IMG/VR virus record: IMGVR_UViG_3300030419_001062
Coordinates: 1-29,702 of that record
Origin: a virus
Direction: 5' to 3' (one strand)
Length of the DNA stretch: 29,702 bases
The notes under the pieces were generated by a model that worked only from the letters and a program-made list of their open reading frames with translations, had not been told where the DNA came from and searched no databases. A program made the translations under genes and the position numbers. Shown here piece after piece: positions 4,642-24,965 of the stretch (positions within the stretch are counted from its first letter, which is position 1; each line of letters opens with the position of its first letter).

Positions 4642-5871
4642 ATGGCTTGGAAAAGAATATTAACTACCGATGATACATCATCAGGTCCACCAGGTCCTAC
4701 TGGTTCAGCAGGTCCCACAGGTCCTACAGGTCCAACCGGTCCCACAGGTCCAACTGGTCCTACTGGCTCAACTGGTTCCGCTGGTCCCACAGGTCCAGCA
4801 GGTCCAGCAGGTGCAGACGGAGATGATGGCTCAGATGGAGCAACAGGTCCTACTGGTCCTACAGGTCCACAAGGTCCAGCAGGTCCACAAGGTTCTACCG
4901 GTCCTACTGGTCCAAGTGGTTCTAACGGCTCTAATGGCTCAGATGGTGCTGATGGTGCTGATGGTGCAACTTGGCATTTTAGTTCATCGGCAGGTGCTCC
5001 ATCTGCTCCCACGGGGAAAAATGGAGACTTTGCGTATCATTCAGGTACAGAAAAAATTTATTACAAAGATAGTGGAAGTTGGAGTGAAAAATCTGATTTA
5101 ACTGGTTCTACAGGTCCTACAGGTGCTACGGGACCTACAGGTTCAACAGGACCTACAGGACCAGCAGGACCACCTGGACCAGACGGACCAACAGGACCAG
5201 ACGGACCAACAGGACCAACAGGACCAACAGGTTCAACTGGAGGAACTGGTCCGACTGGACCAACGGGACCTGCAGGTGCTGATGGTGATGATGGTGACGA
5301 TGGTGCTACGGGACCTACAGGTCCAACGGGACCACAAGGAGCAACAGGACCTACAGGACCTAGTGGAAGCAACGGTTCAAATGGTTCAGATGGAGCAGAT
5401 GGAGCAGACGGTGCTACATGGCATTTCTCAACTAGTGTAAGTGCTCCTTCAGCCCCTACAGGAAAGAATGGCGATTTCGCATACCACTCAAGTACTGAAA
5501 AGATTTACTATAAAGCGAGTGGCAGTTGGTCTGAGAAATCAGATTTAACTGGCTCAACTGGACCTACAGGACCTACAGGACCTGCCGGTGCAGACGGTTC
5601 AGATGGTGGAACAGGACCTACTGGACCCGCAGGACCACAAGGACCAGCAGGACCACAAGGACCATCAGGACCCGCAGGTGGAACTGGACCTACAGGACCT
5701 ACTGGACCTACTGGACCCGCAGGACCACAAGGACCGACTGGAAGTGCAGGTACAGGGCTAGGTCATGCCACTAACGATATAATAAGTAGTGGAGAATTTA
5801 AAATTCATGTCGATACAGACGCACCTGGGTCAAGTGATGGTTCTGATGGCGATATTTGGTTTCAATACTAA
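4642..5871 (+). CDS. Collagen-like (Gly-X-Y) fibre protein
   Basis: Encodes 409 residues starting [11 protein letters not shown]. Three Gly-X-Y tracts (about residues 14-108, 154-257 and 303-371) are dominated by GPT and GPA triplets with some GPQ, GSN and GAD. They alternate with two copies of a ~50-residue non-collagen module (ATWHF...GSWSEKSD). The C-terminus (about 372-409) is non-repetitive ([19 protein letters not shown]) and may nucleate trimers. Such tracts form triple-helical rods in phage and bacterial surface proteins, so this is probably a fibre shaft. Pro is mostly at X and Thr/Ala at Y. Glycine codons are mainly GGT up to about 5125 and mainly GGA after it. The prolyl-hydroxylase-like gene three genes downstream may modify it. 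Confidence 0.9.
4966..5124 (+). repeat. Non-collagen module, copy 1
   Basis: A 53-codon block inside the collagen-like gene, starting [20 protein letters not shown], separating Gly-X-Y tracts 1 and 2. It differs from copy 2 at five residues only (hand alignment), but most synonymous positions differ. It looks like a small beta domain ([17 protein letters not shown]) that punctuates the rod. Confidence 0.85.
5413..5571 (+). repeat. Non-collagen module, copy 2
   Basis: The second copy of the 53-codon block, starting [20 protein letters not shown], separating Gly-X-Y tracts 2 and 3. Of 48 residues identical to copy 1, I count about 31 written with a different codon. At least three are serines that swap between AGT and TCN codons. 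Confidence 0.85.
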
Positions 5872-6833: not shown

Positions 6834-7080
6834 ACATACTAGAAAGTGGCTTGTTGTCACTAGAGAAGAATATGATAATCTTGTTATCGATTGGGATTCA
6901 ATAAAGGAGACTGATGCTAATCATGTTAGATGGAATAATGATGAAAGCGAATGTATATTGGCATATAATGGTGCCAAACCTTCCTTTCTATCAAATATTA
7001 CTGGTGTTATTAATCACGGTGAAGTTTTAGAATTACTACTTACGTCTGATTGGGTAAGCCCTGACGAAGATGAAATATAG
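6823..7080 (+). CDS. Small acidic protein of unknown function, fibre region
   Basis: Encodes 85 residues from a TTG at 6823, overlapping the end of the LamG gene by 11 bases; its own stop overlaps the oxygenase start by 11 bases. The sequence (RKWLVVTREEYDNL, later NHGEVLELLLTSDW) is compact, Asp/Glu/Trp-rich and probably globular, without membrane segment or cysteine cluster. Overlap on both sides suggests translation coupled with the LamG and oxygenase genes. No family is recognised with confidence. Confidence 0.6.
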   Translation: MDTKHTRKWLVVTREEYDNLVIDWDSIKETDANHVRWNNDESECILAYNGAKPSFLSNITGVINHGEVLELLLTSDWVSPDEDEI

Positions 7081-7630
7081 AATATTAAAAGATTCAGTTC
7101 TTCAAAATTGGTATTTAGTTGGTGATTTTCTTAGTGATGATGAAATCAACTTAATAAATAATATTGTTCGAGATACTGACTATACTACTGGTAATATTAT
7201 CGGGGGGAATCCTGATGGTTATAGAAATAGCCAGATCAAATGGATTCCATTCGATAATGAATGGTTATATGATAGGATATGGGATTGGGCTAATGTTGCT
7301 AATAATGATTTGTGGAATTTTGATATTGAAGGATTTAAAGACCAAACGCAATATACATCATACGATGCACCAGCAGGTCATTATGATTGGCATTTAGATA
7401 TTTTAGGTGATGACATCAATCATAGAAAAATTAGTTTAGTATGCCCATTAAATGATGGGTATGAAGGTGGTAAACTGCAATTTAAGTTCGGTAAAGATTA
7501 TCAAGAGATAAATCTTTTAAAGGGACAAGCAGTATTTTTTCCTTCGTTTTATTTACATAGAGTAACACCTGTTACTAAAGGTAACAGAAAAAGTTTAGTT
7601 CAATGGGTTTCAGGAGACCCTTATAGATGA
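7070..7630 (+). CDS. 2-oxoglutarate/Fe(II)-dependent oxygenase, prolyl 4-hydroxylase (P4Hc/PKHD) type
   Basis: Encodes 186 residues, the normal size for a single-domain P4Hc enzyme. The double-stranded beta-helix landmarks are present. The HxD iron motif is H108-L-D110 in AGHYDWHLDI; R119 and the ISLVCPLN strand follow; YEGGKLQF is the usual Y-x-GG-x-L-x-F; KGQAVFFPSF precedes the distal iron ligand H163 in YLHRVTPV; R173 in GNRKSLVQW is the expected 2-oxoglutarate carboxylate ligand. The family hydroxylates proline or other residues using O2, Fe(II) and 2-oxoglutarate. The gene is co-transcribed with the collagen-like fibre gene, making it the nearest obvious candidate substrate. Other substrates are possible because such oxygenases are widespread in marine phages. 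Confidence 0.88.
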   Translation: MKYRILKDSVLQNWYLVGDFLSDDEINLINNIVRDTDYTTGNIIGGNPDGYRNSQIKWIPFDNEWLYDRIWDWANVANNDLWNFDIEGFKDQTQYTSYDAPAGHYDWHLDILGDDINHRKISLVCPLNDGYEGGKLQFKFGKDYQEINLLKGQAVFFPSFYLHRVTPVTKGNRKSLVQWVSGDPYR

Positions 7631-8759: not shown

Positions 8760-8960
8760 ATGTTATCAATATTATTAACAGTAATGCTTATGGATGCAGA
8801 TAGTGTAAAAGTAAAACCAACTATTCATCCTACATATAATGTAATGGCTTTAAATACTGAAGATATTAAAAAGAAAAAGAAGAAGAAAGGTAAGAAACTA
8901 GGCGAGAAAGGCAAGAAGAAGAAAAAAGGTTTTTGGTCTAAAATGTTTGGAGCCAAGTAA
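8760..8960 (+). CDS. Lysine-rich cationic small protein
   Basis: Encodes 66 residues from the ATG at 8760 (GGGGAAATAAA upstream); an earlier TTG at 8739 would sit inside the previous gene. A short hydrophobic N-terminus (MLSILLTVMLMDAD), a neutral middle (about 15-37), then a C-terminal half dominated by lysine with blocks of seven and five consecutive Lys, ending FWSKMFGAK. Highly cationic small proteins in lysis loci include disruptins, which act on the outer membrane. A DNA- or LPS-binding role is also possible. The stop overlaps the endolysin start (TAATG), so both are made together. Confidence 0.65.
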   Translation: MLSILLTVMLMDADSVKVKPTIHPTYNVMALNTEDIKKKKKKKGKKLGEKGKKKKKGFWSKMFGAK

Positions 8961-9337
8961 TGCCTAAATTCGGAAAAAGAAGTAAAGAACGTCTTAAAGG
9001 CGTTGATGCTAGACTTGTAAATGTTCTTAATGAATTAATTAAAATAATGGATGTAACTATCATTGAAGGATTGCGTTCAGAAGAAAGACAGAAAGAGTTA
9101 TTGGCTAAAGGTGCTACGAAAGTAAAATATTCTAAACATATGGAAGGGAAAGCAGTTGACCTTGCACCATATCCTATTGATTGGAAGAATAGAGATGGAT
9201 TTCATTATATGGGTGGAATGATTCGTGGTATTGGTCACCAACTCGGCATTAATGTTCGTTGGGGTGGAGACTGGGATTCTGATGGAGATGTTAAAGATAA
9301 TGGTTTTGATGATTTAGTTCATGTGGAGATAAAGTAA
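8960..9337 (+). CDS. Peptidase M15-type endolysin (D-Ala-D-Ala / L-Ala-D-Glu peptidase family)
   Basis: Encodes 125 residues, a single catalytic domain. Zinc-binding motif SKHMEGKAVDL gives H60 and D67; the third ligand and catalytic acid are in DLVHVEI near the C-terminus (D118, H121). EGLRSEERQKELLAKG (about residues 36-51) is the conserved helix before the active site, and RWGGDWDSDG (about 100-109) is the usual W-G-G-D-W loop. This matches the VanY/T5-endolysin type of peptidoglycan peptidase. No signal peptide is visible, so export would depend on a holin; holin-like genes lie immediately upstream. ATG overlaps the previous stop. It probably cuts the peptide stem at lysis, although a virion role cannot be ruled out. 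Confidence 0.9.
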   Translation: MPKFGKRSKERLKGVDARLVNVLNELIKIMDVTIIEGLRSEERQKELLAKGATKVKYSKHMEGKAVDLAPYPIDWKNRDGFHYMGGMIRGIGHQLGINVRWGGDWDSDGDVKDNGFDDLVHVEIK

Positions 9338-11093: not shown

Positions 11094-12803
11094 ATGGCTT
11101 GGAAAAATGTTAAACAAACCCCAAAATATTATAATGGTGGTGTAATCCAACAACAGGCTAATACAAGTGTTTGGGGTGGAATATCAAATGCAGGTGATGC
11201 AATAGCAGATGTTGTTGCACATCATTATCGTTCACAAAAACCTCCTGTTACAGCAGAATATGGTATGTATATACCTCAAGCACGTCAAGGTGCACCTGTC
11301 CAACAAGCAAGTAGTAATCCTTGGAACTTTGCAAACATTGATTCTCCTTCAATGTCTGATTATGTTAGGCAATATGGCAAAGGATTAGATAGAAAAAGCG
11401 ATGATGATAAAAGAGGCTTTTGGGATATGATGATTACAGATAATATCATCGGTGGTCTTTATGGTGCAGGTAAATCAGTTTATGATAAAGGCAAACTAAG
11501 AAAACAAGCAAAGAAATCTGCTATTACAGAAGGTGATGCACACACACAAGAAATGCTACTTAAAGAAAAAGGCGTGACAGATTCTAATTATGATGCATTA
11601 AATCAAATTGTAAATGATAGAAAAAGAGACAGATTTCATAGACTTAAACAACAAGAACTAGACAGAGATATGAAAGGTGCTATGAATAGAATGAAATACG
11701 AAGCAAAGAAAAGGGTTGATAACCCATTCGTTCCAGCAGAAGGTGATTTAGATGAGATTAAATTTAATCCTGTTCAAATGGATGTTAATGAGAATATACA
11801 GGACGTATTAGATAGCAGACCTAAGAAAAGAACAGGTTCTGATAAACTTGAGGATTGGATTTATGATAAAGTAGATTCATGGAAAGATAAGAGATGGCAA
11901 AAGAAGAATCTTAAAGAAGGCTCTGGTAATGCTAGAACAGATTTATTATCAATGCTTAAAAATGAAAGACCAACTAGCAATCTAGAATGGAGTCATCAAG
12001 GAGATATAGAAGGCGATGATTTTAAATTTGATTATAATTTAAACAAAGGTGTTTCAGACAATCTTGATTTTGTAGGTAAAAAAGCAGGGCTAGAAGAAAA
12101 GCAAAGACTAACTAGGTTAAAAGAAGGTTTTGGTGGTCATATTTCAGATGTGTGGCGAGAGTTTGGAATGCTAGATGAGGATAAATTAAAATCAAATATA
12201 CAAGGGGCACCAACTCAATTAAGAAGAGAATCAAGTGATTTTTCAACTTCCAATATAAAGCCTGTAGGGATTAGTGAAGAAGATTTCCAATTTCAGGTAG
12301 AACATGGTGATGATATTAGAAATGTTAAAGCATTAGAAGCACAAGCATTGCAAAAGCAAAAAGAGAGTGATAAAGCACGTGATAATGTAATGCGAATGAA
12401 TATAGATGCTCCTAATAAATTAAGAAGTGCTACTAATAATATTAAGCCTAATATGACAACATTACCAGTCAGACCTGTCCCTGGTCGAAATGTTGCACCA
12501 ACTCCTTATGGTGAACGTGATATTACAAAGCCAAGTTGGTTACACCCTGAAGGTGGCATGGTTAGAGAATATGAAACTGGTGGATATTTATCACCAAGAC
12601 GACCTCCTAGTTATGCACATGGTGGGAATGTTGCTCAAGTAGGTGCGAATAATCAAGCAATGAATACAAAACTACTTGAAGGGCAACAAAATACACAAGG
12701 ATATATAACAAATGATAGCATTAGGCAAGGTAGAATGAGAAAATTTATTGCAGAATTAAATAATCAAAGTCCTATGTTTATAGATACAATACTAAGAAGA
12801 TAA
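11094..12803 (+). CDS. Putative virion structural protein (MAWK N-terminus, Gly-Gly C-terminus)
   Basis: Encodes 569 residues; ATG preceded by AAGGAG. Starts MAWKNVKQTPKYYNGG, sharing MAWK with the two fibre proteins. Residues 20-110 are Gln/Pro/Ala-rich; the centre is long, charged and helical (DRDMKGAMNRMKYEAKKR). The C-terminal ~90 residues bring a Gly-Gly pattern (HPEGGMVREYETGGYLSP, then AHGGNVAQVGANNQAMNT) similar in flavour to the start of the previous gene's product, and then TKLLEGQQNTQGYITND. No TM segment or enzyme motif. It probably forms part of the tail or internal core with its neighbour. Two adjacent genes carrying related Gly-Gly motifs may act as a pair. Confidence 0.65.
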   Translation: MAWKNVKQTPKYYNGGVIQQQANTSVWGGISNAGDAIADVVAHHYRSQKPPVTAEYGMYIPQARQGAPVQQASSNPWNFANIDSPSMSDYVRQYGKGLDRKSDDDKRGFWDMMITDNIIGGLYGAGKSVYDKGKLRKQAKKSAITEGDAHTQEMLLKEKGVTDSNYDALNQIVNDRKRDRFHRLKQQELDRDMKGAMNRMKYEAKKRVDNPFVPAEGDLDEIKFNPVQMDVNENIQDVLDSRPKKRTGSDKLEDWIYDKVDSWKDKRWQKKNLKEGSGNARTDLLSMLKNERPTSNLEWSHQGDIEGDDFKFDYNLNKGVSDNLDFVGKKAGLEEKQRLTRLKEGFGGHISDVWREFGMLDEDKLKSNIQGAPTQLRRESSDFSTSNIKPVGISEEDFQFQVEHGDDIRNVKALEAQALQKQKESDKARDNVMRMNIDAPNKLRSATNNIKPNMTTLPVRPVPGRNVAPTPYGERDITKPSWLHPEGGMVREYETGGYLSPRRPPSYAHGGNVAQVGANNQAMNTKLLEGQQNTQGYITNDSIRQGRMRKFIAELNNQSPMFIDTILRR

Positions 12804-15800
12804 TGCCTAAAGAAATACAAGAAATAAATAAGTTCAATACAGGAACTATTATGAATCCTTCATCTAGGGATATTCCTATAGATGCGGCAAGATATTCAAA
12901 GAATATAGATGCAGTCTCAGAAGATGGTAAATTAAAAGGTATACCTGCTGATAAGAAATTATTAGCAGATGGTACTTGGGCTGAATATGCATCATCTGAG
13001 GCTGTACTTGCAGTTGATATGGACTCTGAACCTGCTATTATTAATAATGATGGTCAGTATGATATTATCTATTTTGATAAAGATTCTACAGAAATTAAAA
13101 ATATTACCGACTTATATGAAAAGAATGGAAGTATTGCTACTGCTAGTATGGGTTCAGGTTTGGGCAATAGTGAGTATTATGTAGAGATGGAGGTAAATAA
13201 TAAAGAAGCACATATAGCAATGGGACCTGCATCAACTGATTATCCTCGTTGGGCTGGATATATAGAACATAAACAATTTGGTACTGCAACTACTACTTTA
13301 ACATTAGAAGATGCTAGGCTTACAAACCCCTCAGCATTTCCAAATATCTATCAATTTGTAGAAGCAACATTTGATGGTGTAAGATACTTATACGGAATAG
13401 AGTGGCAAGGTAAATCTGTATATCAATTTAATTGGGTTGATAAAACTTTTATAAAGAAATCTTTAGAGATTTTTACAAGTACACAAGGTATCTCATTAAA
13501 TTCAGATGGTAGTTCATTATTTGTTTTAGATGTTGATAGTACAAGTGTTGTACATTCTATTGATTTAAATGAAATGGTTAGTGAGTTTGATGTTCAAATT
13601 ACACATAATGCTAATTACTCTGATATGCTATATGTTGGTTCAACTCTTTGGTTTTCATGGATGGGTAATTACAATGAAAACTTTACTGATAATTTATGGG
13701 TTGGTAATTGTGCAGGGAGTAATTTCACATCATCTACAACAGGAACACAAAATGTTATTGACAGACAGCCAGAGAATGGAGATGAATCTGATTCTGATGC
13801 AGTAGGCGATTGGGTTACAACTGCTAATTCAACAACTATGTCTGGTATGCATGTTGAATTTCGTTCTCCTAGATGGAATTTGGTTGATGTTGGTAATGAT
13901 GATTATTGTGGTATAACTACTGAAGTTCAAAAAGATGGAAGCCCTTCTACAGCAGTTTACTTTAGAAAAGATAGTGGTACTGGTGCAAGTGTTGGTATAC
14001 GAGTAAAAACAGTTGTTCAATGTATATATAAAGGGAATACAGCAGGTACTAAATTAGGAGGTATTGGTTCTGGTGGTATATTATTACATCTTGTAAATAC
14101 TAATAGTTATGACCTTCAAGCAACCGGTAATGACATTATGCACTCTGCTACTGGTAGACAAGGTGGTAAATATATAATAACTATTGGTGATGATGCTAAC
14201 GATACGGATGTTACTCAAGTATATAACTATCCCATGCCTGATATGGATTCAAAATCTAATGGCGATTCACTTGGAACAAAATCACTAGCCGCAGATGTTG
14301 ATGTGCCTAGTGCGGCAGTATTTGACCATGGGAGTAGTAGTATTTCATTATTTGCAGGTAAAGGTGGTGGTAGATGGGCACACGCTACTGACCTTACAAG
14401 TGTAAGTATTGGACAAGAGGCTGATGTTAGTTTGTCATTTACTAAGACTGTTACTAGTTATGGAACTCCTGGCTCTGGTACAACATTTATATCAGGTGAA
14501 AGAAAAGGATTTCCTACTGGTCATACTTGTTTTTATAAAGTTTCATTTATGTATGATGGTTATCAAGAAGGTCCATTAAGTGATGATTTTAGAGTTAGAA
14601 CTACCGCTGATTTAAGTATAAGTGCTGGTAATGGTATCAATGTTCAAATTAATATTAGGAACCTTGCATCATTCAATAAAAGAATATCTCATATTAATTT
14701 ATATCGTGCTGATGCTACAACTGAAGATGCTACTGTTAAAGAGAATGGTTTTTATAGGCTTGTAGACCAAATTTCATTAAAAAGTGGATGGGCATCGGTA
14801 ACTGACTCTGCTGATAATCCTACTTGGGGTAATTATAGAACTAAAACAATTCCAGATAAAAATGAAGCAGGTGCATCATTTGAAGCAAGAACTGGAATTA
14901 CTGAAGCGTTATTAAACTTTACACCTAATTATAAATATAGCACACAACTTAATAATCAATTATTTGTTGCTGATTGCTATCATCCTGATTTAGGAGAAAA
15001 GTTTTCTAATTTTATGTTCAAATCAAAGCCATATAACTTTGACCAGTTCGATGTTTCAATGGATTTATTAAGGTTGCCAACTAAGCCTACTGCTATAAAG
15101 GCTTTTCAGGGTCGTATATATGCATTTTCAGAAAATACTATATATAAAATAGAGCCTAATAGTTTTTATATAGAAGATACACTCGAAGGAATTGGTTGTT
15201 TAAGTAAGGCTTCTATATGTGTTACTGATTATGGAATGTGTTTTGCAGATGATAAAAATATTTATTTACACGATGGTAGAAGACCTGTTCCAATAGGTGA
15301 CGCAATATTAAGAACTTCAGATAGTGCAGTTGACAATACAAATGTTAGTTGGTATAAAAGACAAGATAAAAACCCATCTATAGTATTTGATGCTGAACGT
15401 GGTTCATTTTTGGTTTTCTTCAAAGGTGGTGATGCTAATTTCTATGTTTGGGCTTATAATATGGCAAGAAGAAGATGGGACCTTTATGATACTGTAGGAT
15501 GGAAAAATGGAACAGTATTTGCTGGACCTAAAAATGAGATATTATTTGCAGGTTCAAGTGTTCAAATATTAATTCATTATATGGGAAGTACATCAAATCA
15601 AAGAGATTGGCATTACGAAACAAAGAATATTTCATTAGGTTCTGATACTCAAAAGAAGATGTTTTATAAAGTAAAGTCACAAAAAGATTCAAATGTTGTA
15701 CTTCAATATCAAAAGAATGGTACTGGTTCTTGGTTGGCACTCCAAAACCCTGATAGTGAAAGAATACTTTCAACAGATAAGAAATTTGAATCAATAGCAA

Positions 15801-15880
15801 TCAAGGCTTATACAAGTAGTAATCCAAAAGAAGAATTAGATTCTTTAGGAATTGTATTTAGGAGGTTAAGTGTTAAGTAA
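12803..15880 (+). CDS. Large tail-hub / nozzle-like structural protein
   Basis: Encodes 1025 residues; ATG overlaps the previous stop (TAATG). The N-terminus (NKFNTGTIMNPSSRDIPIDA, then a Lys/Gly turn) resembles the start of podovirus nozzle/stabilisation proteins, where a pattern of G-x-N-x, dipeptide A-x-N and a short G-x-L is usual. Most of the chain is beta-rich with repeated Gly/Asp/Ser turns (LDVDSTSVVHSIDLNE). There is an Fn3-like segment at about 565-665 (TCFYKVSFMYDGYQEGPLSD). A propeller-like C-terminal part runs from about 755 (IKAFQGRIYAFSENTIYKI; DYGMCFADDKNIYLHDG). Beta-propeller nozzle proteins at this place in podovirus genomes (T7 gp12-like) close the tail tube. The assignment rests on pattern and gene order, not on a database match. 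Confidence 0.7.
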   Translation: MPKEIQEINKFNTGTIMNPSSRDIPIDAARYSKNIDAVSEDGKLKGIPADKKLLADGTWAEYASSEAVLAVDMDSEPAIINNDGQYDIIYFDKDSTEIKNITDLYEKNGSIATASMGSGLGNSEYYVEMEVNNKEAHIAMGPASTDYPRWAGYIEHKQFGTATTTLTLEDARLTNPSAFPNIYQFVEATFDGVRYLYGIEWQGKSVYQFNWVDKTFIKKSLEIFTSTQGISLNSDGSSLFVLDVDSTSVVHSIDLNEMVSEFDVQITHNANYSDMLYVGSTLWFSWMGNYNENFTDNLWVGNCAGSNFTSSTTGTQNVIDRQPENGDESDSDAVGDWVTTANSTTMSGMHVEFRSPRWNLVDVGNDDYCGITTEVQKDGSPSTAVYFRKDSGTGASVGIRVKTVVQCIYKGNTAGTKLGGIGSGGILLHLVNTNSYDLQATGNDIMHSATGRQGGKYIITIGDDANDTDVTQVYNYPMPDMDSKSNGDSLGTKSLAADVDVPSAAVFDHGSSSISLFAGKGGGRWAHATDLTSVSIGQEADVSLSFTKTVTSYGTPGSGTTFISGERKGFPTGHTCFYKVSFMYDGYQEGPLSDDFRVRTTADLSISAGNGINVQINIRNLASFNKRISHINLYRADATTEDATVKENGFYRLVDQISLKSGWASVTDSADNPTWGNYRTKTIPDKNEAGASFEARTGITEALLNFTPNYKYSTQLNNQLFVADCYHPDLGEKFSNFMFKSKPYNFDQFDVSMDLLRLPTKPTAIKAFQGRIYAFSENTIYKIEPNSFYIEDTLEGIGCLSKASICVTDYGMCFADDKNIYLHDGRRPVPIGDAILRTSDSAVDNTNVSWYKRQDKNPSIVFDAERGSFLVFFKGGDANFYVWAYNMARRRWDLYDTVGWKNGTVFAGPKNEILFAGSSVQILIHYMGSTSNQRDWHYETKNISLGSDTQKKMFYKVKSQKDSNVVLQYQKNGTGSWLALQNPDSERILSTDKKFESIAIKAYTSSNPKEELDSLGIVFRRLSVK

Positions 15881-16138: not shown

Positions 16139-17302
16139 ATGAGTATGGAATTATTAGGAGGTGGTGCATATATGGCAGGAAAACCTTTATTAGAAGATTC
16201 ACTAGCAAATATAAACCAAGACTTTACATACAATGTGCCTGCGGCACAATTTGGTCAACATGACAGTATGTCGGCTAATATGCTAGGCTTACAAAGTTTT
16301 GCTGGTCAGATGGGTGGCAGAGGAAATGAAATGTTTGGAATGGCACAAGGGTTATTTTCAGGAGACAGCCCTTATCTACAAGCAGAAAGAGAAAGACTTC
16401 TTCAAGGTGTAGATGACACAACAAGAATGCAAATGCGTAATATCGGTACTGCATTAAGTTCTAGAGGTATGGGTCAAGGTGGTTTAAGTCAAATCTTAGG
16501 TGAGGCAACTGGGAATAGAGCAAATGAGCAAGTTAGGCAAGGCAACATGGATATACTTGGAAAAGGATTCCAAGCAGGTACTCAAATGATGGGAATGGCT
16601 AATCAAGCATATGGAACACAAGGACAAGCATTAGGTCAAGCAGGTTCGCTTTCATTAGGGTTAACAGACCAGATGAATCAAATGAGTATGCAATCAGAAA
16701 GACTCGGTCATCAACAAAGACAATATGAATTAACATCTGCATATAACCAACAACTTTCTAATAGAGAAAATAAAGCAGGATTTTTAAGTAATATCATCGG
16801 CTCTGGTGCGAGTATAGCATCTGCTAAAATTATGTTTGGCTGTATCCCAGAAGGGACATCAATAGATACTCCAGATGGAGATGGTTTTAATACTATAGAA
16901 AATATAAAGGTAGGAGATAAGGTAATAGGTTATAATGGTAAACCAGTAAAGGTTCTACAAAAACATTCCTACCTAGAGAATAAAGAGGAACTTAGGTTTT
17001 ATTCTATTAAGTTTAAAGATTCAGATGGTAAAGAAAGTGAAGTCAATGTTTCTGATTCGCATAGAGTACGAGGTGTCTGTGCTAAAAATATAACTCATGC
17101 AGATATAACATCTAAGGAAGTTTACAAAGGTGTAGAACGCAGTTATGATTTATTAACTGAAGATAAAGGTTATCAAATAGACGGAATCCCTGTTAATAGC
17201 ATGATAGAAGAAATGGCTCATTCAGTACAAAATCCAAGTTTGTTAAAGGATTGGGATTTGAATTGGACAACAAGAGAAACAAAAATCACATATATAGACT
17301 AG
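16139..17302 (+). CDS. Internal virion (ejection) protein with C-terminal Hint domain
   Basis: Encodes 387 residues. Residues 1-230 are Gly/Gln/Met/Ala-rich and helical (LLQGVDDTTRMQMRNIGTAL; GSLSLGLTDQMNQMSMQSER), with a hydrophobic Gly/Ala segment at 215-231, similar in character to small podovirus ejection proteins (T7 gp14 position). Residues 235 to about 354 fit a Hint fold: C235 in CIPEGTSIDTPDG, ENIKVGDKVIGYNGKPV, block-B-like VNVSDSHRV with H308, and GVERSYDLLTEDKGYQIDG. After the Hint region only ~33 residues remain. The usual terminal His-Asn of inteins is absent (GIPVNSM), so full splicing is unlikely; thioester-driven cleavage after G234 is possible. Start at 16139 uses AGAGGA; ATG at 16172, behind GGAGGT, is an alternative. 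Confidence 0.75.
   Translation: MSMELLGGGAYMAGKPLLEDSLANINQDFTYNVPAAQFGQHDSMSANMLGLQSFAGQMGGRGNEMFGMAQGLFSGDSPYLQAERERLLQGVDDTTRMQMRNIGTALSSRGMGQGGLSQILGEATGNRANEQVRQGNMDILGKGFQAGTQMMGMANQAYGTQGQALGQAGSLSLGLTDQMNQMSMQSERLGHQQRQYELTSAYNQQLSNRENKAGFLSNIIGSGASIASAKIMFGCIPEGTSIDTPDGDGFNTIENIKVGDKVIGYNGKPVKVLQKHSYLENKEELRFYSIKFKDSDGKESEVNVSDSHRVRGVCAKNITHADITSKEVYKGVERSYDLLTEDKGYQIDGIPVNSMIEEMAHSVQNPSLLKDWDLNWTTRETKITYID
16841..17200 (+). other. Hint (Hedgehog/intein) domain, about residues 235-354
   Basis: Block A begins at C235 (CIPEGTSIDTPDG) and continues through NTIENIKVGDKVIGY. The block-B-like motif is VNVSDSHRV with H308. The terminal strand is RSYDLLTEDKGYQIDGIPVN. No homing-endonuclease insertion is present, as the gap between A and B blocks is only about 60 residues. 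The terminal His-Asn pair is not conserved. Confidence 0.75.
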
Positions 17303-17311
17303 AGGTCAAAA

Positions 17312-19294
17312 ATGGCAGTACAACAACAAGCAGGTAGAAGCCCTTGGGATTTTGCAGATTCTATAGAGTCTGCTGTTAATAATGCGATAGATATGCATTA
17401 TAAAGAAAAACAGATGAGGATTGATGAAGAGCGTTATAATGATAATAAAATGATGACGATGTTTCAACAAGAGTTCAAAAGTTATAATGACCAATTTACG
17501 CAAATGACAGAATTACTAAAAATGACAGACGACCCTACTATGATTAATGAGTTTTTAACAGGACCTGAATATCGAAGATTGCACTCCAGTATGCAAAGTT
17601 TGATAGAGAGACAATCAGAATATTTCCGTTCTCAAGGATTACCTGAAGAAGAGATTCAAAAACGAACTGCACATATGGACAATGCTCCTATTATCGATGC
17701 TCTGAAAAAAGTAAATGGACCAAAGATGCAATTTAAAGAGAATTATAATAAATATTATGCACCTTATGTTTATGGCGATGATGATGGGCTAAGTGCCAAT
17801 GACCAACATATTAAAAGTATTGCAAAACAATGGTTAGAGGATAATCCAGATTCTAGTTTCTTTGAATTTTTTGAGGACCCTACTATTCAACAGATATTTG
17901 AGAATGAACGAGATGTATATAGCACTATGAATATGTTGAGAGTCCCTAAAAAATTTAGAGATTCATATCCAATAGAAGATTCTCATAAGTTTTGGCAAAA
18001 TATGAGATGGATAGGTGAGTCTCAAGATAGCGTTGATGCTTATATGGATGCATTATCAGGTGCAGATATATTATCTGAAGAAGATGTCATACAGTATAAA
18101 AGAGATATGCAACAAGCGGCATTTAACGGTGATATGGAAGGGTATACTAAAGTATTTGAAAATATCAATAATCATCTTGCTGGTACTGAATTTAGACAGA
18201 AAAGATATGATAAAGAGATGGAATACTTAATGGCTTATCATACATTATTAAATGACCTTGCTGAATCACAAGCCGCATCAGGTGGAATAAAAGATAATGT
18301 AGAATCAGAAATTGGTAAAGTTTGGACTCGCATACAGGCACTAGAAGGTGAACAAGGGGATGATATTAGTACTATGTTTGGTCTTTACGGCAATAATTAC
18401 AATCCTATTGACAATAAAGGGAACAAAAAGAAAATAAAGAAGGGAAATAATCAGCCACTTACTCAAGCACAAATGACACAAGCCGCAAATAATCAATTAG
18501 GTCCAAATTTTGCACCTAATCTAACAAACTTAAACGCTGATAGTTCTGTACCTGTTATTAGGGATGCAATACAGGCAATGATAGATAAACAATCAATTTT
18601 TGGTGCTCCTGGTAATAAACCTAAGTTTACAGATAAACAGGCTCATATGTTATCGAAAAGGAAGAGAGTAAATATTTCTGATTCTGGAGGTAATAAATGG
18701 TATGCACAACTTGATGCTGATAACTTTCAAACTCAACTACATCTATGGGGTCCAGAAGGTGCAAGAAGATGGTTCTTCGATGTTCAAGATAAGCAATGGA
18801 AAGATTCTTCGATGATCACTTCTATGGACAACTTATCAGAGATGGGTGTAAGTGGAATTGTCGCTGATGATATTCTTTCGGGTAGATTCCCTACGGGTGG
18901 TGGTAGATTTACACCTGAAGGCTTGAAATATAAAGTTGGGTTTGATGAAAACGGATATATTCAACTTAATGCAGTTAATGAAAAAGGTGAATTTACTGAC
19001 AGAAAAGGGAATGTAGTTAATGAAGGTCAAGGTTATAAATACTCTGCTAGAAAACTAAGAGTAGGTAGCAATGACAGCCCCGCAAACGTAAAGAAAGCAA
19101 ATGAAAGGTTGATGGATAGTATGATGGAGGATACGAATAACGTAAGACTTCATAACCAACTTGGTGAGTATTATGATGAAGAAGGTGTTCAGATAATGTA
19201 TAGAGGTGCTACTGATAATAACCCTGACAAAAATACAGCAACTTCAACTTCTGTAGTTAAGAAAGATTTTGGTCCTGTTATAGTAAATGATTAA
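17312..19294 (+). CDS. Putative internal virion protein (gp15-like by position)
   Basis: Encodes 660 residues, starting nine bases after the Hint protein. Very helical, Gln/Asp/Glu/Met-rich: MHYKEKQMRIDEERYND, MTELLKMTDDPTMINE, HSSMQSLIERQSEYFRSQ. It has no TM segment and one Lys-rich patch at about 370 (NKKKIKKGNN). The C-terminal third is beta-containing and aromatic (WYAQLDADNFQTQLHLWGPE). Long helical proteins without enzyme motifs, between a small and a giant virion protein, are typical of podovirus ejection proteins such as T7 gp15. These are injected and help form the trans-envelope channel. This rests on order and composition. It overlaps the next gene by eight bases. Confidence 0.65.
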   Translation: MAVQQQAGRSPWDFADSIESAVNNAIDMHYKEKQMRIDEERYNDNKMMTMFQQEFKSYNDQFTQMTELLKMTDDPTMINEFLTGPEYRRLHSSMQSLIERQSEYFRSQGLPEEEIQKRTAHMDNAPIIDALKKVNGPKMQFKENYNKYYAPYVYGDDDGLSANDQHIKSIAKQWLEDNPDSSFFEFFEDPTIQQIFENERDVYSTMNMLRVPKKFRDSYPIEDSHKFWQNMRWIGESQDSVDAYMDALSGADILSEEDVIQYKRDMQQAAFNGDMEGYTKVFENINNHLAGTEFRQKRYDKEMEYLMAYHTLLNDLAESQAASGGIKDNVESEIGKVWTRIQALEGEQGDDISTMFGLYGNNYNPIDNKGNKKKIKKGNNQPLTQAQMTQAANNQLGPNFAPNLTNLNADSSVPVIRDAIQAMIDKQSIFGAPGNKPKFTDKQAHMLSKRKRVNISDSGGNKWYAQLDADNFQTQLHLWGPEGARRWFFDVQDKQWKDSSMITSMDNLSEMGVSGIVADDILSGRFPTGGGRFTPEGLKYKVGFDENGYIQLNAVNEKGEFTDRKGNVVNEGQGYKYSARKLRVGSNDSPANVKKANERLMDSMMEDTNNVRLHNQLGEYYDEEGVQIMYRGATDNNPDKNTATSTSVVKKDFGPVIVND

Positions 19295-22200
19295 TCAATT
19301 TACAAATACCAACGATGAAGAAATGGTAACAATGCCAGATGGTACTGTTATCCCTAAGGCTTGGGCAGAAGGTGCAGGTGTCAATAATCCATTGACAGAT
19401 GATGACGATTTAAAAATCAAACAAGTAGAACCAAAACCAAAACTAAAGCAAAAAGATAAAGATAAATTAGTTAGAATTAAATTTTCTGATAATCGTGATA
19501 GCACGATGATTGATGTAAGTATACCTTCTCATATGGTTCCATTAGTTCAATCTGATACTAGAGAAGGGCTTGAGTATAAAGAGCATTTATCATCTGTATA
19601 CAGACAACACCATAAATTAAAAGGTGGTACTGTAGGCTTTCCATTGCAGAAGAAAGCAAAAGGTTATGATGATGGAGATTCTTTACTTACAGACTTGCCT
19701 GATGTATTTGATTCTAGACTAGATAAAGAAAAAGTTTTTGGTAAGAATATTTCTCAAAAACAAGCAGATGAATTTAATTTATTTGATAGAGTAAATGCAC
19801 GATTTTGGGAGAATTTCCTACCTTTTGGTTATGAGTCAGATGTTCCTTTTAGTCAAGATGAGAATTGGACAGCAGACAGAATTGGTGAAATAGTTGGTGG
19901 TATGGCAGGTTTTGGTCTTTCATTCGCAGGTGAAATGGCTGTACTTGGTGGTACTAGTCTACCTGTTACGTCAGTAGCAAGAATGGCTAAACTAAATAGA
20001 TTAAGAAAATTAGCAAAGAGAGGTCACCAATTAGTTGACGCAGGAAAGAAGAAGCAAGGGAAAAAATTAATTGAAAAGGCTAGTAAAGGATTTAGCGATT
20101 TTACATTAGAACTTGCTGAGAAAAAACAATTAGCCGCAGGACCAAGAGGTATTCTTGGGATGAGTGAGAAATATAATGATATGCTAATTAAAGTAGCATC
20201 AGGTCAAAAAATAGGTGGCAAACTATCGTTTAAAGGGAATCCTAAAATTGCTAATGCGATGGATATGGGCATAAGAAATATGATTGGTTTCCAAGCACAT
20301 GGGCAACTTCATACAAAAGCATTGACATCAATGGAAGATAGACTTTCTATTGCAAAACATGAAGCAATTAACTCTGTTTTATTTACTGGCTTAGGTGCCC
20401 CTAAGTTCTGGTTGAAAGGTGGTAAAAAACAGGCTTGGGATTGGATTGCAGAACCAGCAGGTATTTTTGCTATAGGTTATGGTTGGGACGATAAGGACCC
20501 TCAGGGAAATCCATTATCTATGGAAGATAGACTTATTAGTGGATTTGGTATGGTAGCATTTCATGGTGCTATGATGGGTATGAATAGAATCCAGATTAAA
20601 GAGAAAATGCGAAATGTTATGATTAACCATTTAGGTTATAGCCCTGAGAAAGCAACTAAGGTAATAAAAGAAAATGTTGGTTGGGAAAGCATAATTAATT
20701 TTGGTGTCTCAAATGCAAGTAAGGTTCAAGGCGAAGTTAATTACTGGAGTAAGAGTAAAGGTAAAAATAATAAAGATACAATTAATATTTCATCTATTGT
20801 AAAGCCAACAACATCTGATGGTAAATGGAGAATGACATATAATTTTGTAAACAACCCCAATAAACAACATAAGATTGAAGGTAAAAATCAAAATGAATTA
20901 TATAGTGCATTAAGAAAGAAAGGATATAAGCCTGTAAATATTCGTGCAAATAAGAGACTCATGCCACCTAGTGAGCCTTCAAAAAGAATGACTGATAAAG
21001 TAAAAAATATTAAGAAAAATATTTCTACATTAAAAAACATAAAAGAGAGAGATAAATACTTTGAAGAAAATGAAGTAATTGTAAGAGGTAAAAAGGTTGA
21101 ATCATCAAGATTATTTGACCCTTCTAAAGATATAATTCCAGTTAGAAATGATGCAGGTAAAATTGTTGCATATGAATTAAAAACAAGAGTTAGAAAAACT
21201 ACTGGTAAACATTCTCCAGTTGAATTAAATAGGGATAATAGATTACGCTTTAGAACAAAAAAGCAATTAATGGAGTTTGTAAATAAGAATTGGCTACCTA
21301 AGAATGCGATTAATGAACAAATAAACTATTTACAAGGTGAGAGACGTAAGGTAAATACAGCATCAGAATACAATCAATGGAAGCAATTAATTGGACTTGC
21401 TAAGAAAAATGCAGGTAAAGGGAATATTAGCGAAAAAGAATTTTCAACAATTACAAAACAACTCTATCCTCAATCAGGAGGGAAATTAGAAAACTTAAAT
21501 AGATGGGAATTAGCACACTTATCTAGCATTGTTAATTTTAATAAAAATATGGTCAGATACTCACCTCCTCCTGACCATGATAATTGGTATACGAAAAGTC
21601 GTGATGTTGTAAAAGGATTTTTAGGAGACTTAACCATTCCTGTACATACTAGATTATTATTTTCAGATTCTAAGTCTGCTCATTCACTAGGTAGAAAGAT
21701 GTTGAAGTATGAATTGGAAAGACAACAGATTGCATCTGAAGGTATCAAACTTAAAAAAGTATTAGAAGACCAGTTAGGTATTAAGGGTGATGACTTTGAT
21801 AATATACTTTCTGTTATTGATGATAAGTTTAAAGATTGGGATACTGGAAATTTATCAGGCTCACGTAAAGAAATAAACATAGCAAAGCAGAAGTTTACAG
21901 ATGATATGTATTCTTTTCTTGTTAGTGCTGGTGTCGAAGTAAACAATCTTAGCAGGGGTGGTAAAAGATGGGACCCAATATTTGCAATATATGACAAAGC
22001 AGGTCAGCCACTACATATTTTTGACCCTAAAGATTCCATAAGGTTAATGGGTGGACATAAATATACAATACAAGAAGATGTTTTAAATAAAAACGGGGAT
22101 GTTACATACGTTTATAGAAATGAAGGTCGTCAATTCTTTGAAACTAAAAAAGAAGCACATGATTGGGCTAAAAAACATCACATACCTAAAGAAGCAGTAC

Positions 22201-24965
22201 ATTATACAACTAAATATAAAGACCCTTCAACAGGAGAGATAAGAAAAGGATATGAGTATAGAGGTGATGTTGCAAAAATATATAATATAAAAAAATCTAG
22301 AGATAAAAATTTAGACAACAACCAATATGCCAACTACAGAGCAGAAACTCAAAAGAAACCAGATAGGATTTTGAGAGAGTGGGAGACCGATGTGAGAGAT
22401 TCTAATGGAAATCTCAGGCAGAATGTTAGTGTTTATAATGGGAAATGGAGAACAGACCCAGTTTCTAAAAAGAAGAAAATGGGTAGAGGTGCCCAAGGTC
22501 ACTACATACCTGATTTCTTTACCAGACAATTATCCGAAAGTGCGAGAAAAGCATTAGCAACTGATAATTCTTTTAGGGCTAGAGTCGTAGAAAATATCAA
22601 GACATCAGATAAAGATTTAAAAGACCTAAGTCTAAAGAATTTAAAAGGTATACCTAGAGGCATAAAAAACGACATACAGTTATTAAAAAAGGTTAATAAA
22701 GCAGAAGCACAAGAGGTGCTTGATAATTTTATACATAATGTTGCACTCACCAAGTTTAAAAAGATGGCTAATTGGGCAGAAGGTAAAGGTGTTTACGGAA
22801 CTCAATATGTAAGACAGGCAGATTTAGACCCTCAATTTGTTTATGGTAAAAATGATGTAATGATAAAGAATGTAAAAGAGTTCAATATTAAAGTAGGTGA
22901 TAGAATAGATAATATTACTGGGTTAAAGACAAATAAAAAGAGAGGCTCTACTAAAGTTGAAAAGGTCATTGATACATATGAAAGAAATTTTGGAAAATTA
23001 CTTGCTAGATACTCTGAACAGGTAGCACATATTGTACCTTCATATAGACACTATGGTAGAGGTGGTGCTGATAATCCATCAATATCTATACAAAGAGATA
23101 AGAGTAAAGTAGTAAAAGAAATTCCATTAGAACAGAAAATAGCAAGTGAAACCAATGAAGCGTTTGCTAAGTGGGCTATCAATGCTGTAAGAAGACAAGA
23201 CAATGGGTGGGACCCTCTAGAAGCATATGGACTTAACTTCGGTAAAGGGTTTACTGCAATATCTAAAGTAACATCGAATCTTGGTCTTTCTAGTCCTTTG
23301 TCTGGTTGGAAAAACTTACTCTTAGGTCAAGCAGAGAACTTTACAACATTTGGTGCTAAGACATTTATAGAAGGTCTAGGGACTGGAATGAATGATAGTA
23401 AATTTTGGCATGATTACAATCTTGCTATTGGTGGTAGATATGCAGGTTCGTATGAATTAGGTACTAAGGGAGGTGCTTGGAGTGCTATAGGTGCAACAGG
23501 TCTTATGTCTCCTACTGAGGTTTGGAATAGACATTTTGCAGTTGCTATGGGAAGAATTGCGGCAAGAAAAGCATTTAATACATTACGCACAGGAGAAAAA
23601 GGCATCCTTGATTTCGGTAAAAAATCTTCATACAATGTAATGAAAGATGTATTCAAGTTTTCAGATAAAGAAATTTCCACTATGCTTAAAAGAGGTAAGA
23701 TGACAACAAAAGAAGAGGTTCAAGCGGCACAGATGGCTCATATTATTACTCAAGGTGCCCCTACATTACCATTTATACCTGTTTGGATGTCAAGACCTTG
23801 GGTTAAGCCTTTAACTATATTCTATAGAATTGGTTATAGAATGACAGATAATATTTATAACAATGTCTTAAAACCTCTTGTTAGAGATAACAACCCTGCA
23901 CCTCTTGCTAGGTATGCAGTATCTAGGGCACTTGCAGGTGAAGGAGTTTATTGGGGTATCCATCAAGCACTTGGAGAAGATAGAAGGAATCAGTATAAAT
24001 CAATGTCAGGTAGACTAATGGATAATATGTTTAAGGCTGAGTTCTTTGGTGTCTTTACTAATATGGTAGATGAAGATGGAAGTAGTTCAGGTTTATTATC
24101 AGAATATGAACCAGCACCATTGTCGATGGCTGATAATGTGATAGGTAATATTTTACTAGGAGGTAAGTGGACTGTAGGTGAGATAAAAAGATGGCTGAAA
24201 AGCGAAGAATACAATACAGCAGGTGGTAAAACACTAGCACAAATGGGTAAAGATATAATACAAGAGAATTATGTATTTGGAAATCATCTTATAAAGAATC
24301 TACATCGAATGAATAAATCATGGTGGGATGATGATAGATGGAAAAATAGGTATCTTAAAAATTACCAAAAAGCAGTAGAAGATGTTATAAAAGAAGAAGG
24401 ACCATATAAGGCTGGAGTAGTTGGTAAAGTATATGATAAAGATTCATATATTGGTGAGTTAGGTGCTGTAGCCCCGTATTATAGGCATTTAAAGGAATTA
24501 TTTGTTAATGATGAATCAAGTATCAAAGAGTTGGCAGATTCTTATTATGCAACTGCACATTTGGTATTTGCACAAGAACTATTAGATGAAATGGCAAACT
24601 CAGGTCCTTCAATAAAAGATAAAGAACAGGCAGTAACAAGGGCTAAACTTTTGACTGAAGAAAAATTAAAGACTGTTATTAAAAGAATGAGACCTATTCC
24701 AGAATCATGGCACAATGCAAAAACTGGTGAAAGTAAATACTATAAGTTTGCACAATCTATGGCTACCGATGAAGATAGGGAAAGATTAAAAGCAATGCTT
24801 GATAAGTACGACAAAGTATTTGTACCTAGATTAAATAAGGCTATAAGAAAATTTAGTACTATACCTTCTCATTCGCCTTGGTCGCATATTACATTCAAGA
24901 GTTTTGGCACAACTGCTAAAGACTTAAAAGCATTAAGACCAGGATTGAAAGGGCTTTCAGATTAA
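19287..24965 (+). CDS. Giant internal virion protein (gp16-like by position), 1892 residues
   Basis: The largest gene in the window. Acidic/basic low-complexity linkers open the chain (KPKLKQKDKDK at about 50). Amphipathic or hydrophobic segments at about 200-230 (IGEIVGGMAGFGLSFAGEMA) and weaker ones near 365-385 and 415-430 could insert in a membrane. Residues 480-800 are basic. The last ~600 residues are helical with a motif-rich core (SPLSGWKNLLLGQAENFTTF at about 1335; LPFIPVWMSRPWVKPLTIFY at about 1495). I see no lysozyme/transglycosylase signature, unlike the T7 gp16 N-terminus. Placement after 387- and 660-residue proteins suggests it forms the DNA-ejection channel. It could also be a polyvalent-type protein with unrecognised effector domains. 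Stop overlaps the next ATG. Confidence 0.7.
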   Translation: MINQFTNTNDEEMVTMPDGTVIPKAWAEGAGVNNPLTDDDDLKIKQVEPKPKLKQKDKDKLVRIKFSDNRDSTMIDVSIPSHMVPLVQSDTREGLEYKEHLSSVYRQHHKLKGGTVGFPLQKKAKGYDDGDSLLTDLPDVFDSRLDKEKVFGKNISQKQADEFNLFDRVNARFWENFLPFGYESDVPFSQDENWTADRIGEIVGGMAGFGLSFAGEMAVLGGTSLPVTSVARMAKLNRLRKLAKRGHQLVDAGKKKQGKKLIEKASKGFSDFTLELAEKKQLAAGPRGILGMSEKYNDMLIKVASGQKIGGKLSFKGNPKIANAMDMGIRNMIGFQAHGQLHTKALTSMEDRLSIAKHEAINSVLFTGLGAPKFWLKGGKKQAWDWIAEPAGIFAIGYGWDDKDPQGNPLSMEDRLISGFGMVAFHGAMMGMNRIQIKEKMRNVMINHLGYSPEKATKVIKENVGWESIINFGVSNASKVQGEVNYWSKSKGKNNKDTINISSIVKPTTSDGKWRMTYNFVNNPNKQHKIEGKNQNELYSALRKKGYKPVNIRANKRLMPPSEPSKRMTDKVKNIKKNISTLKNIKERDKYFEENEVIVRGKKVESSRLFDPSKDIIPVRNDAGKIVAYELKTRVRKTTGKHSPVELNRDNRLRFRTKKQLMEFVNKNWLPKNAINEQINYLQGERRKVNTASEYNQWKQLIGLAKKNAGKGNISEKEFSTITKQLYPQSGGKLENLNRWELAHLSSIVNFNKNMVRYSPPPDHDNWYTKSRDVVKGFLGDLTIPVHTRLLFSDSKSAHSLGRKMLKYELERQQIASEGIKLKKVLEDQLGIKGDDFDNILSVIDDKFKDWDTGNLSGSRKEINIAKQKFTDDMYSFLVSAGVEVNNLSRGGKRWDPIFAIYDKAGQPLHIFDPKDSIRLMGGHKYTIQEDVLNKNGDVTYVYRNEGRQFFETKKEAHDWAKKHHIPKEAVHYTTKYKDPSTGEIRKGYEYRGDVAKIYNIKKSRDKNLDNNQYANYRAETQKKPDRILREWETDVRDSNGNLRQNVSVYNGKWRTDPVSKKKKMGRGAQGHYIPDFFTRQLSESARKALATDNSFRARVVENIKTSDKDLKDLSLKNLKGIPRGIKNDIQLLKKVNKAEAQEVLDNFIHNVALTKFKKMANWAEGKGVYGTQYVRQADLDPQFVYGKNDVMIKNVKEFNIKVGDRIDNITGLKTNKKRGSTKVEKVIDTYERNFGKLLARYSEQVAHIVPSYRHYGRGGADNPSISIQRDKSKVVKEIPLEQKIASETNEAFAKWAINAVRRQDNGWDPLEAYGLNFGKGFTAISKVTSNLGLSSPLSGWKNLLLGQAENFTTFGAKTFIEGLGTGMNDSKFWHDYNLAIGGRYAGSYELGTKGGAWSAIGATGLMSPTEVWNRHFAVAMGRIAARKAFNTLRTGEKGILDFGKKSSYNVMKDVFKFSDKEISTMLKRGKMTTKEEVQAAQMAHIITQGAPTLPFIPVWMSRPWVKPLTIFYRIGYRMTDNIYNNVLKPLVRDNNPAPLARYAVSRALAGEGVYWGIHQALGEDRRNQYKSMSGRLMDNMFKAEFFGVFTNMVDEDGSSSGLLSEYEPAPLSMADNVIGNILLGGKWTVGEIKRWLKSEEYNTAGGKTLAQMGKDIIQENYVFGNHLIKNLHRMNKSWWDDDRWKNRYLKNYQKAVEDVIKEEGPYKAGVVGKVYDKDSYIGELGAVAPYYRHLKELFVNDESSIKELADSYYATAHLVFAQELLDEMANSGPSIKDKEQAVTRAKLLTEEKLKTVIKRMRPIPESWHNAKTGESKYYKFAQSMATDEDRERLKAMLDKYDKVFVPRLNKAIRKFSTIPSHSPWSHITFKSFGTTAKDLKALRPGLKGLSD

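Follow-up and report, generated by a model that had tools for sequence, protein, structure and literature searches.

The C-terminus of a 387-aa protein encoded by the viral DNA analysed here has a Hint (Hedgehog/intein) fold, and is probably a non-splicing Hint domain that removes itself from the protein in a reaction dependent on Cys235. The window, i.e. the whole stretch of 29,702 nucleotides that was analysed, makes up the initial 29.7 kb of a virus record of 53,047 bases, which stems from an uncultured phage of the short-tailed type. The ORF runs from 16139..17302, and all genes and domains for which coordinates are given below as start..end are located on the plus strand. Cys235 (16841..16843), the predicted nucleophile of an N-S acyl shift, would attack the Gly234-Cys235 peptide bond, aided by His308 of block B and Asp337 of block F. 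The resulting thioester would then be resolved by water or another nucleophile, and residues 1–234 would be freed from the 17-kDa Hint part. Since the protein occupies the position of a podophage gene 14-type ejection protein, the Hint domain may be a temporary module during folding or assembly, lost by the time the N-terminal part carries out its role in the virion or envelope.

Hint fold of the C-terminal domain

The initial annotation, which was based on the letters of the sequence, had described a Gly/Gln/Met-rich protein with a Hint-type C-terminus at 16841–17200, corresponding to C235 (16841–16843) up to S354 (ending at 17200). Both observations were confirmed. Residues 1–234 (16139..16840; 24.9 kDa), the portion that would be freed by cleavage at Cys235, contain 15.4% Gly, 11.5% Gln and 8.1% Met. 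The Hint domain itself covers approximately residues 235–356 (16841..17208), as supported by Pfam, sequence searches, AlphaFold2 and Foldseek.

Pfam matches to Hom_end_hint and Hint_2 began exactly at C235, with E-values of 0.004 and 0.006 that fall short of the curated cut-offs. For Hint_2 (PF13403), the best Pfam family for the domain, the 387-aa protein scored 17.4 bits against a gathering cut-off of 28.4, and only block A was matched. Relatives of the domain with 45–50% identity do exceed the gathering score; of five that were tested from Verrucomicrobia, four did so (L080, L089, L099 and L116). The Hint region alone matched the TerL inteins of mycobacteriophages across 93% of its length (E 3e-4), and the best solved relative by sequence was PI-SceI. 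AlphaFold2 models were built with 12 homologues (mean pLDDT 81) and with 38 homologues (mean pLDDT 83, Hint core approximately 97). Comparison of both models with the PDB by Foldseek returned intein structures at a probability of 1.0 (best E 9e-7), the top matches being class 3 DnaB inteins, gp41-1, BIL2, PI-SceI and Hedgehog (1at0). The start of the Pfam matches at C235, the match to the TerL inteins, the relatives above the gathering score and the Foldseek probability together indicate more than a chance match, and the modelled structure confirms the Hint-superfamily fold of residues 235–356. The Hint call of the initial annotation, which had proposed structure prediction as a check, was thus correct, and the domain indeed has no endonuclease insert. 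PHROGs matches of the domain to terminase and helicase families were rejected as an indication of function, because they reflect inteins residing inside those proteins.

The N-terminal part is less easily placed. Residues 1–234 had no match in the phage collection, and profile comparisons yielded no significant homologue. A relationship to the A5 family was examined in three ways and found no support. The profile comparison was not significant; a larger profile compared by hhalign gave an E-value of 0.07 with an attractive-looking match (N-x-D-x-T-x-N-x-A-A-x-F), and hmmsearch against shuffled sequences gave its top scores to the shuffles. Scans of IMG/VR for close relatives, using the whole 387-aa protein and the neighbouring 1892-aa protein, found nothing. 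A helix formed by residues 217–232 (16787..16834), predicted by AlphaFold2 with moderate local confidence, ends just upstream of Cys235. In the alignments, the relatives have a corresponding segment ahead of the Hint Cys, and Lys230 is kept in 52 of 56 sequences.

A distinct subfamily and its C-terminal block

A first search of IMG/VR contigs with the C-terminal motif pattern GYxxDGxxVxSM yielded homologous domains, and profile-guided scans extended the set to approximately 25 phage loci. The set also took in 43 Verrucomicrobiota loci and one phage-like contig from an alphaproteobacterial bin. C235 (block A), H308, D337 and T340 were each present in all 56 aligned sequences; this invariance is informative, because none of these residues was included in the search patterns. 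H308 (codon 17060–17062) belongs to block B, S305-D-S-H308 (17051..17062), which has the form [T/C/S]xxH; its first position was Cys in 44 sequences, Ser in 10, and Thr and Gly in one each. D337 (codon 17147–17149) and T340 delimit block F, D337-L-L-T340 (17147..17158).

The final block, G349-I-P-V-N353-S354-M-I (17183..17206; G349 codon 17183–17185), is altered. V-N-S-M-I is near-invariant (N in 55 and S in 56 of the 56 sequences), although the invariance of V-N-S-M is partly built in, as 52 of the sequences match a pattern that contains it. The motif was nevertheless kept in nine sequences found without it, four of which match only the other pattern (L087 included) and five of which come from new genomes found by profile search. 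The helix SMIxEM, located past the Hint domain, is also conserved, which suggests an additional function. Judged by sequence, the domain is a Hint subfamily of its own, common to phages and a predicted bacterial lipoprotein.

The domain thus ends in G-I-P-V-N-S-M, where G-x-x-V-H-N is usual. N353 occupies the position of the penultimate His of inteins and S354 that of the terminal Asn, five residues after the Gly (G+5). In ordinary Hint domains and inteins from the block A scan, Asn was found at G+5 of the last block (counted from the Gly or its equivalent) in 44 matches. L057/L079 reads V-H-S-M, with His at G+4 followed by Ser, and this fixes the register. The absence of the terminal His-Asn pair, already noticed in the initial annotation, holds for the whole subfamily. 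Class 1 inteins end with Asn, Gln or Asp in register at G+5, followed by Ser, Thr or Cys; here Ser is at G+5 and Asn at G+4. Class 3 inteins have no N-terminal nucleophile but a block F Cys (WCT motif), whereas here Cys235 is present and the block F residue is Asp337. By these features, the domain falls outside both splicing classes.

Inteins cannot lose the terminal Asn, Gln or Asp, although some splice without the penultimate His, and for Hedgehog the first acyl shift alone suffices (PMC7664689). Because of the Ser at G+5 and these two requirements, the residues present would be expected to form a thioester that leads to N-terminal cleavage or transfer, and splicing by residues 235–356 is unlikely.

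Comparison with known systems gave the same picture. The class 1 and class 3 inteins (PI-SceI, gp41-1, MchDnaB-1 and MsmDnaB) share the fold at a Foldseek probability of 1.0 with E-values down to 9e-7, and class 1 inteins have the block A Cys, block B His and block F Asp in common with the window Hint. The latter differs in the Ser that replaces the terminal Asn, in having no second extein domain and in its location at the protein C-terminus. BIL domains, which are intein-like, have no +1 nucleophile and give mostly cleaved products, share the fold as well (2lwy by profile, 6y75 by structure), and cleavage instead of splicing would be expected for both. The window Hint has the cleavage-type residues, but it ends in V-N-S-M-I where BIL domains end in H-N, and it belongs to a separate subfamily in which the tail helix is conserved. 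The Hedgehog Hint (1at0) is a weaker structural match (E approximately 6e-3); it is likewise C-terminal, relies on the N-S shift alone and does not need a terminal Asn. A counterpart of the sterol-recognition region of Hedgehog was not seen in the window protein, in which approximately 31 residues, modelled with low confidence, follow the Hint domain.

Other types of Hint domain were also encountered. A scan with the block A pattern returned mostly Hint domains or inteins in large tail-type proteins ending in ...VHN, which were set aside as a different family. Many phage contigs (L004–L055) carry such domains, with ...VHN-GGGGK junctions and in many cases close to the beginning of a large tail-type protein. 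At L073:4285–6873, a phage protein in the same position as the window protein has, besides a C-terminal Hint domain that ends in ...VNSMI, a second and internal one that ends in ...LLSHN.

In the Verrucomicrobiota copies, the Hint domain makes up nearly the entire protein (approximately 175–200 aa). Most copies have a signal peptide and a lipobox-like Cys, followed by a short segment and the Hint Cys; in some Verrucomicrobiales (L080–L123), the domain is predicted to be a stand-alone lipoprotein. The distance from lipobox Cys to Hint Cys is mostly 22 residues and otherwise 14, 18 or 26; these distances differ by multiples of four residues, which is compatible with a helix. A phage-type neighbourhood was looked for around these copies and was not found; the neighbours are chromosomal, with no conserved partner. 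Distribution within the Verrucomicrobiales is patchy. One family had a match in 29 of 75 genomes, nearly always as a single copy, and another in 6 of 68 (two of them weak), and in a phylum-wide draw the only strong match was in the centre genome itself. The topology of the domain tree did not settle the direction of transfer, from phage to Verrucomicrobia or the reverse.

Gene order and exchange of the C-terminal cassette

Upstream of the Hint protein lies a 1025-aa gene in a tail nozzle-type position (12803..15880; assigned by context). Two genes follow downstream of the Hint protein, one of 660 aa (17312..19294) at the place of the second ejection-type gene and one of 1892 aa (19287..24965) at that of the large ejection-type gene. 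In phage relatives with enough flanking sequence, the Hint protein is likewise followed by a mid-size gene on the same strand and then usually by a large gene. The downstream pairs measured, for example, 636 + >1686, 561 + 1063, 1110 + >1213 and 732 + >1250 aa, against 660 + 1892 aa in the window. In L247–L249 these genes are preceded by one of 161 aa; the third gene of L075/L078 has only 437–579 aa. In L078, the gene after the Hint protein resembles a PHROG with the annotation 'released from the phage upon host infection' (E 1.3e-6); in L074, the gene before it resembles a virion structural protein (E 1.6e-17). When the 660-, 1892- and 1025-aa neighbours were compared with their positional counterparts, no significant homology emerged.

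A small protein right before two large ones and after a nozzle-type gene resembles the T7 order 12-14-15-16, although the window protein has no sequence match to T7 gp14. To our knowledge, no Hint domain has been reported for T7 gp14, and no description of the present arrangement was found in the literature searched. The initial annotation had called the protein a probable ejection protein. For this phage, the support for that part of the claim comes from the order of the 387-, 660- and 1892-aa genes, as residues 1–234 have no significant relative; judged by position, an ejection role is likely, and 'gene 14-like' describes the gene position only.

Elsewhere in the window, a collagen-like Gly-Pro-Thr repeat protein and a protein resembling (by eye) a 2-oxoglutarate/Fe(II), prolyl-hydroxylase-like oxygenase are encoded approximately 1.2 kb apart (4642–5871 and 7070–7630). 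A 125-aa protein at 8960–9337 resembles, also by eye, an M15-type D-Ala-D-Ala peptidase and is a possible lysin. Similar, non-identical copies of one ORF are found at 85–837 and at the end of the 53-kb record (L003:11131–11646), which would fit either a duplication or a genome that closes into a circle and was put together from two variants.

The best indirect support for self-removal came from a group of Hint-bearing proteins (L068–L072) whose N-terminal part belongs to a large family, of which 80 loci were kept. The C-terminal slot was scored in 78 proteins that either were not truncated at the end of a contig or could be assigned by visual inspection (L145 and L172 were reassigned in this way). 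Five contained a Hint domain, 17 an S74-like domain (SDxxLK...) and 56 neither. Pfam Peptidase_S74 (PF13884) was matched by four of the eight proteins scanned, one of them above the cut-off. The Ser/Lys(+5) spacing of the S74-like domains is that of the S587/K592 dyad of MYRF, and in the homologous MYRF domain Ser587 and Lys592 are catalytic, with the cut at the Ser (PMC3742440).

When a tree was built from the N-terminal parts, each of the five Hint domains fell on a branch of its own, with two changes forced by well-supported branches. The three slot states require 14 changes. L140 (Hint) and L142 (S74) have near-identical N-terminal parts, and their DNA is again 89.7% identical starting just beyond the stop codon; as aligned, this pair exchanges exactly the C-terminal cassette. 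Within the closest group, module-free proteins end 58–69 residues after a shared landmark, the Hint Cys is located at 57 and 60 residues and the S74 Ser at 57–67. Module-free proteins thus end approximately where the modules begin, so that the product of cleavage would look like a homologue that naturally has no module. The SMIxEM tail is absent from the module-free homologues. Residues 1–234 of the window protein have no detectable relation to this N-terminal family.

Recombination may also occur inside the cassette. Phages with near-identical N-terminal parts (L076/L077 versus L256/L258/L259, and L244/L245 versus L246) have different Hint subtypes, or Hint domains differing only in their second half. 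These comparisons suggest that such recombination is frequent.

Alternative readings and significance

The occurrence of two unrelated, presumably self-cutting domains in one slot is our main argument for self-removal. Peptidase_S74/intramolecular chaperone autoprocessing (ICA) domains, known from endosialidase, the GA-1 neck appendage and MYRF, occupy the same slot in related phages and also cleave themselves at the N-terminal junction; they differ in their unrelated fold, Ser-Lys chemistry and additional role as a trimerisation chaperone. As S74 domains double as folding chaperones, the exchange could stem from some requirement, common to both modules, that is not cleavage. The Hint domain might accordingly be a structural or binding module, either a chaperone or an inert remnant, in which Cys, His and Asp serve the fold, and many Hint domains are indeed known from sequence alone. 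We consider this unlikely, since carriers and hosts of very different kinds all keep the three residues, and since the other, unrelated module found in this slot is an autoprotease too. Together with the swap, the invariant catalytic residues argue for an autocleavage that would release the 234-residue part, as proposed in the initial annotation, according to which it may be timed with head assembly or ejection.

The Cys235 thioester could instead be taken by a small molecule, a lipid or another nucleophile, in a Hedgehog-like ligation, and the C-terminal adduct would anchor the N-terminal part, for instance in the outer membrane. T7 gp14 is the first protein ejected and localises to that membrane (PMC8954989). 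The segment upstream of Cys235 is hydrophobic or amphipathic, and in the predicted lipoproteins of Verrucomicrobiales the Hint Cys lies 14–26 residues from the lipid-bearing Cys, placing the active site near the membrane. However, a tail of just 10–30 residues or so follows the Hint domain, with no sterol-recognition-like region, and in the lipoproteins the N-terminal part is a short peptide that is lipidated already, which makes ligation rather improbable. A true intein, in which Asn353 would be the last intein residue and Ser354 the +1 nucleophile, joining residues 1–234 to 354–387, is very improbable: despite the almost invariant Asn-Ser, the conserved and extein-like M-I-x-E-M that follows and the dispensability of the penultimate His in some inteins (PMC7664689), the Asn is at G+4 where ordinary Hint domains have it at G+5, L079 has His there and then Ser, the stand-alone Verrucomicrobiales copies have no C-extein beyond 10–30 residues, and module-free homologues lack the SMIxEM tail.

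Self-removal by a non-splicing Hint domain therefore remains the preferred reading, and the subfamily appears to be built for cleavage over splicing. It may also be of use as a compact self-cleaving tag whose chemistry differs from that of engineered inteins. Podophage ejection proteins are built into the head and later pass a narrow channel, and how this change of state is controlled is poorly understood. A self-cutting cassette that is exchangeable with a known autoprotease provides a directly testable hypothesis on these proteins. It is possible, if short of probable, that podophages equip a gene 14-type ejection protein with a swappable, self-removing C-terminal cassette. Hint and S74/ICA domains would then have been recruited to the same slot, timed self-cleavage would be a general part of how the ejection machinery is built or fired, and the membrane-anchored Hint domain of Verrucomicrobiales may act on a membrane-linked substrate.
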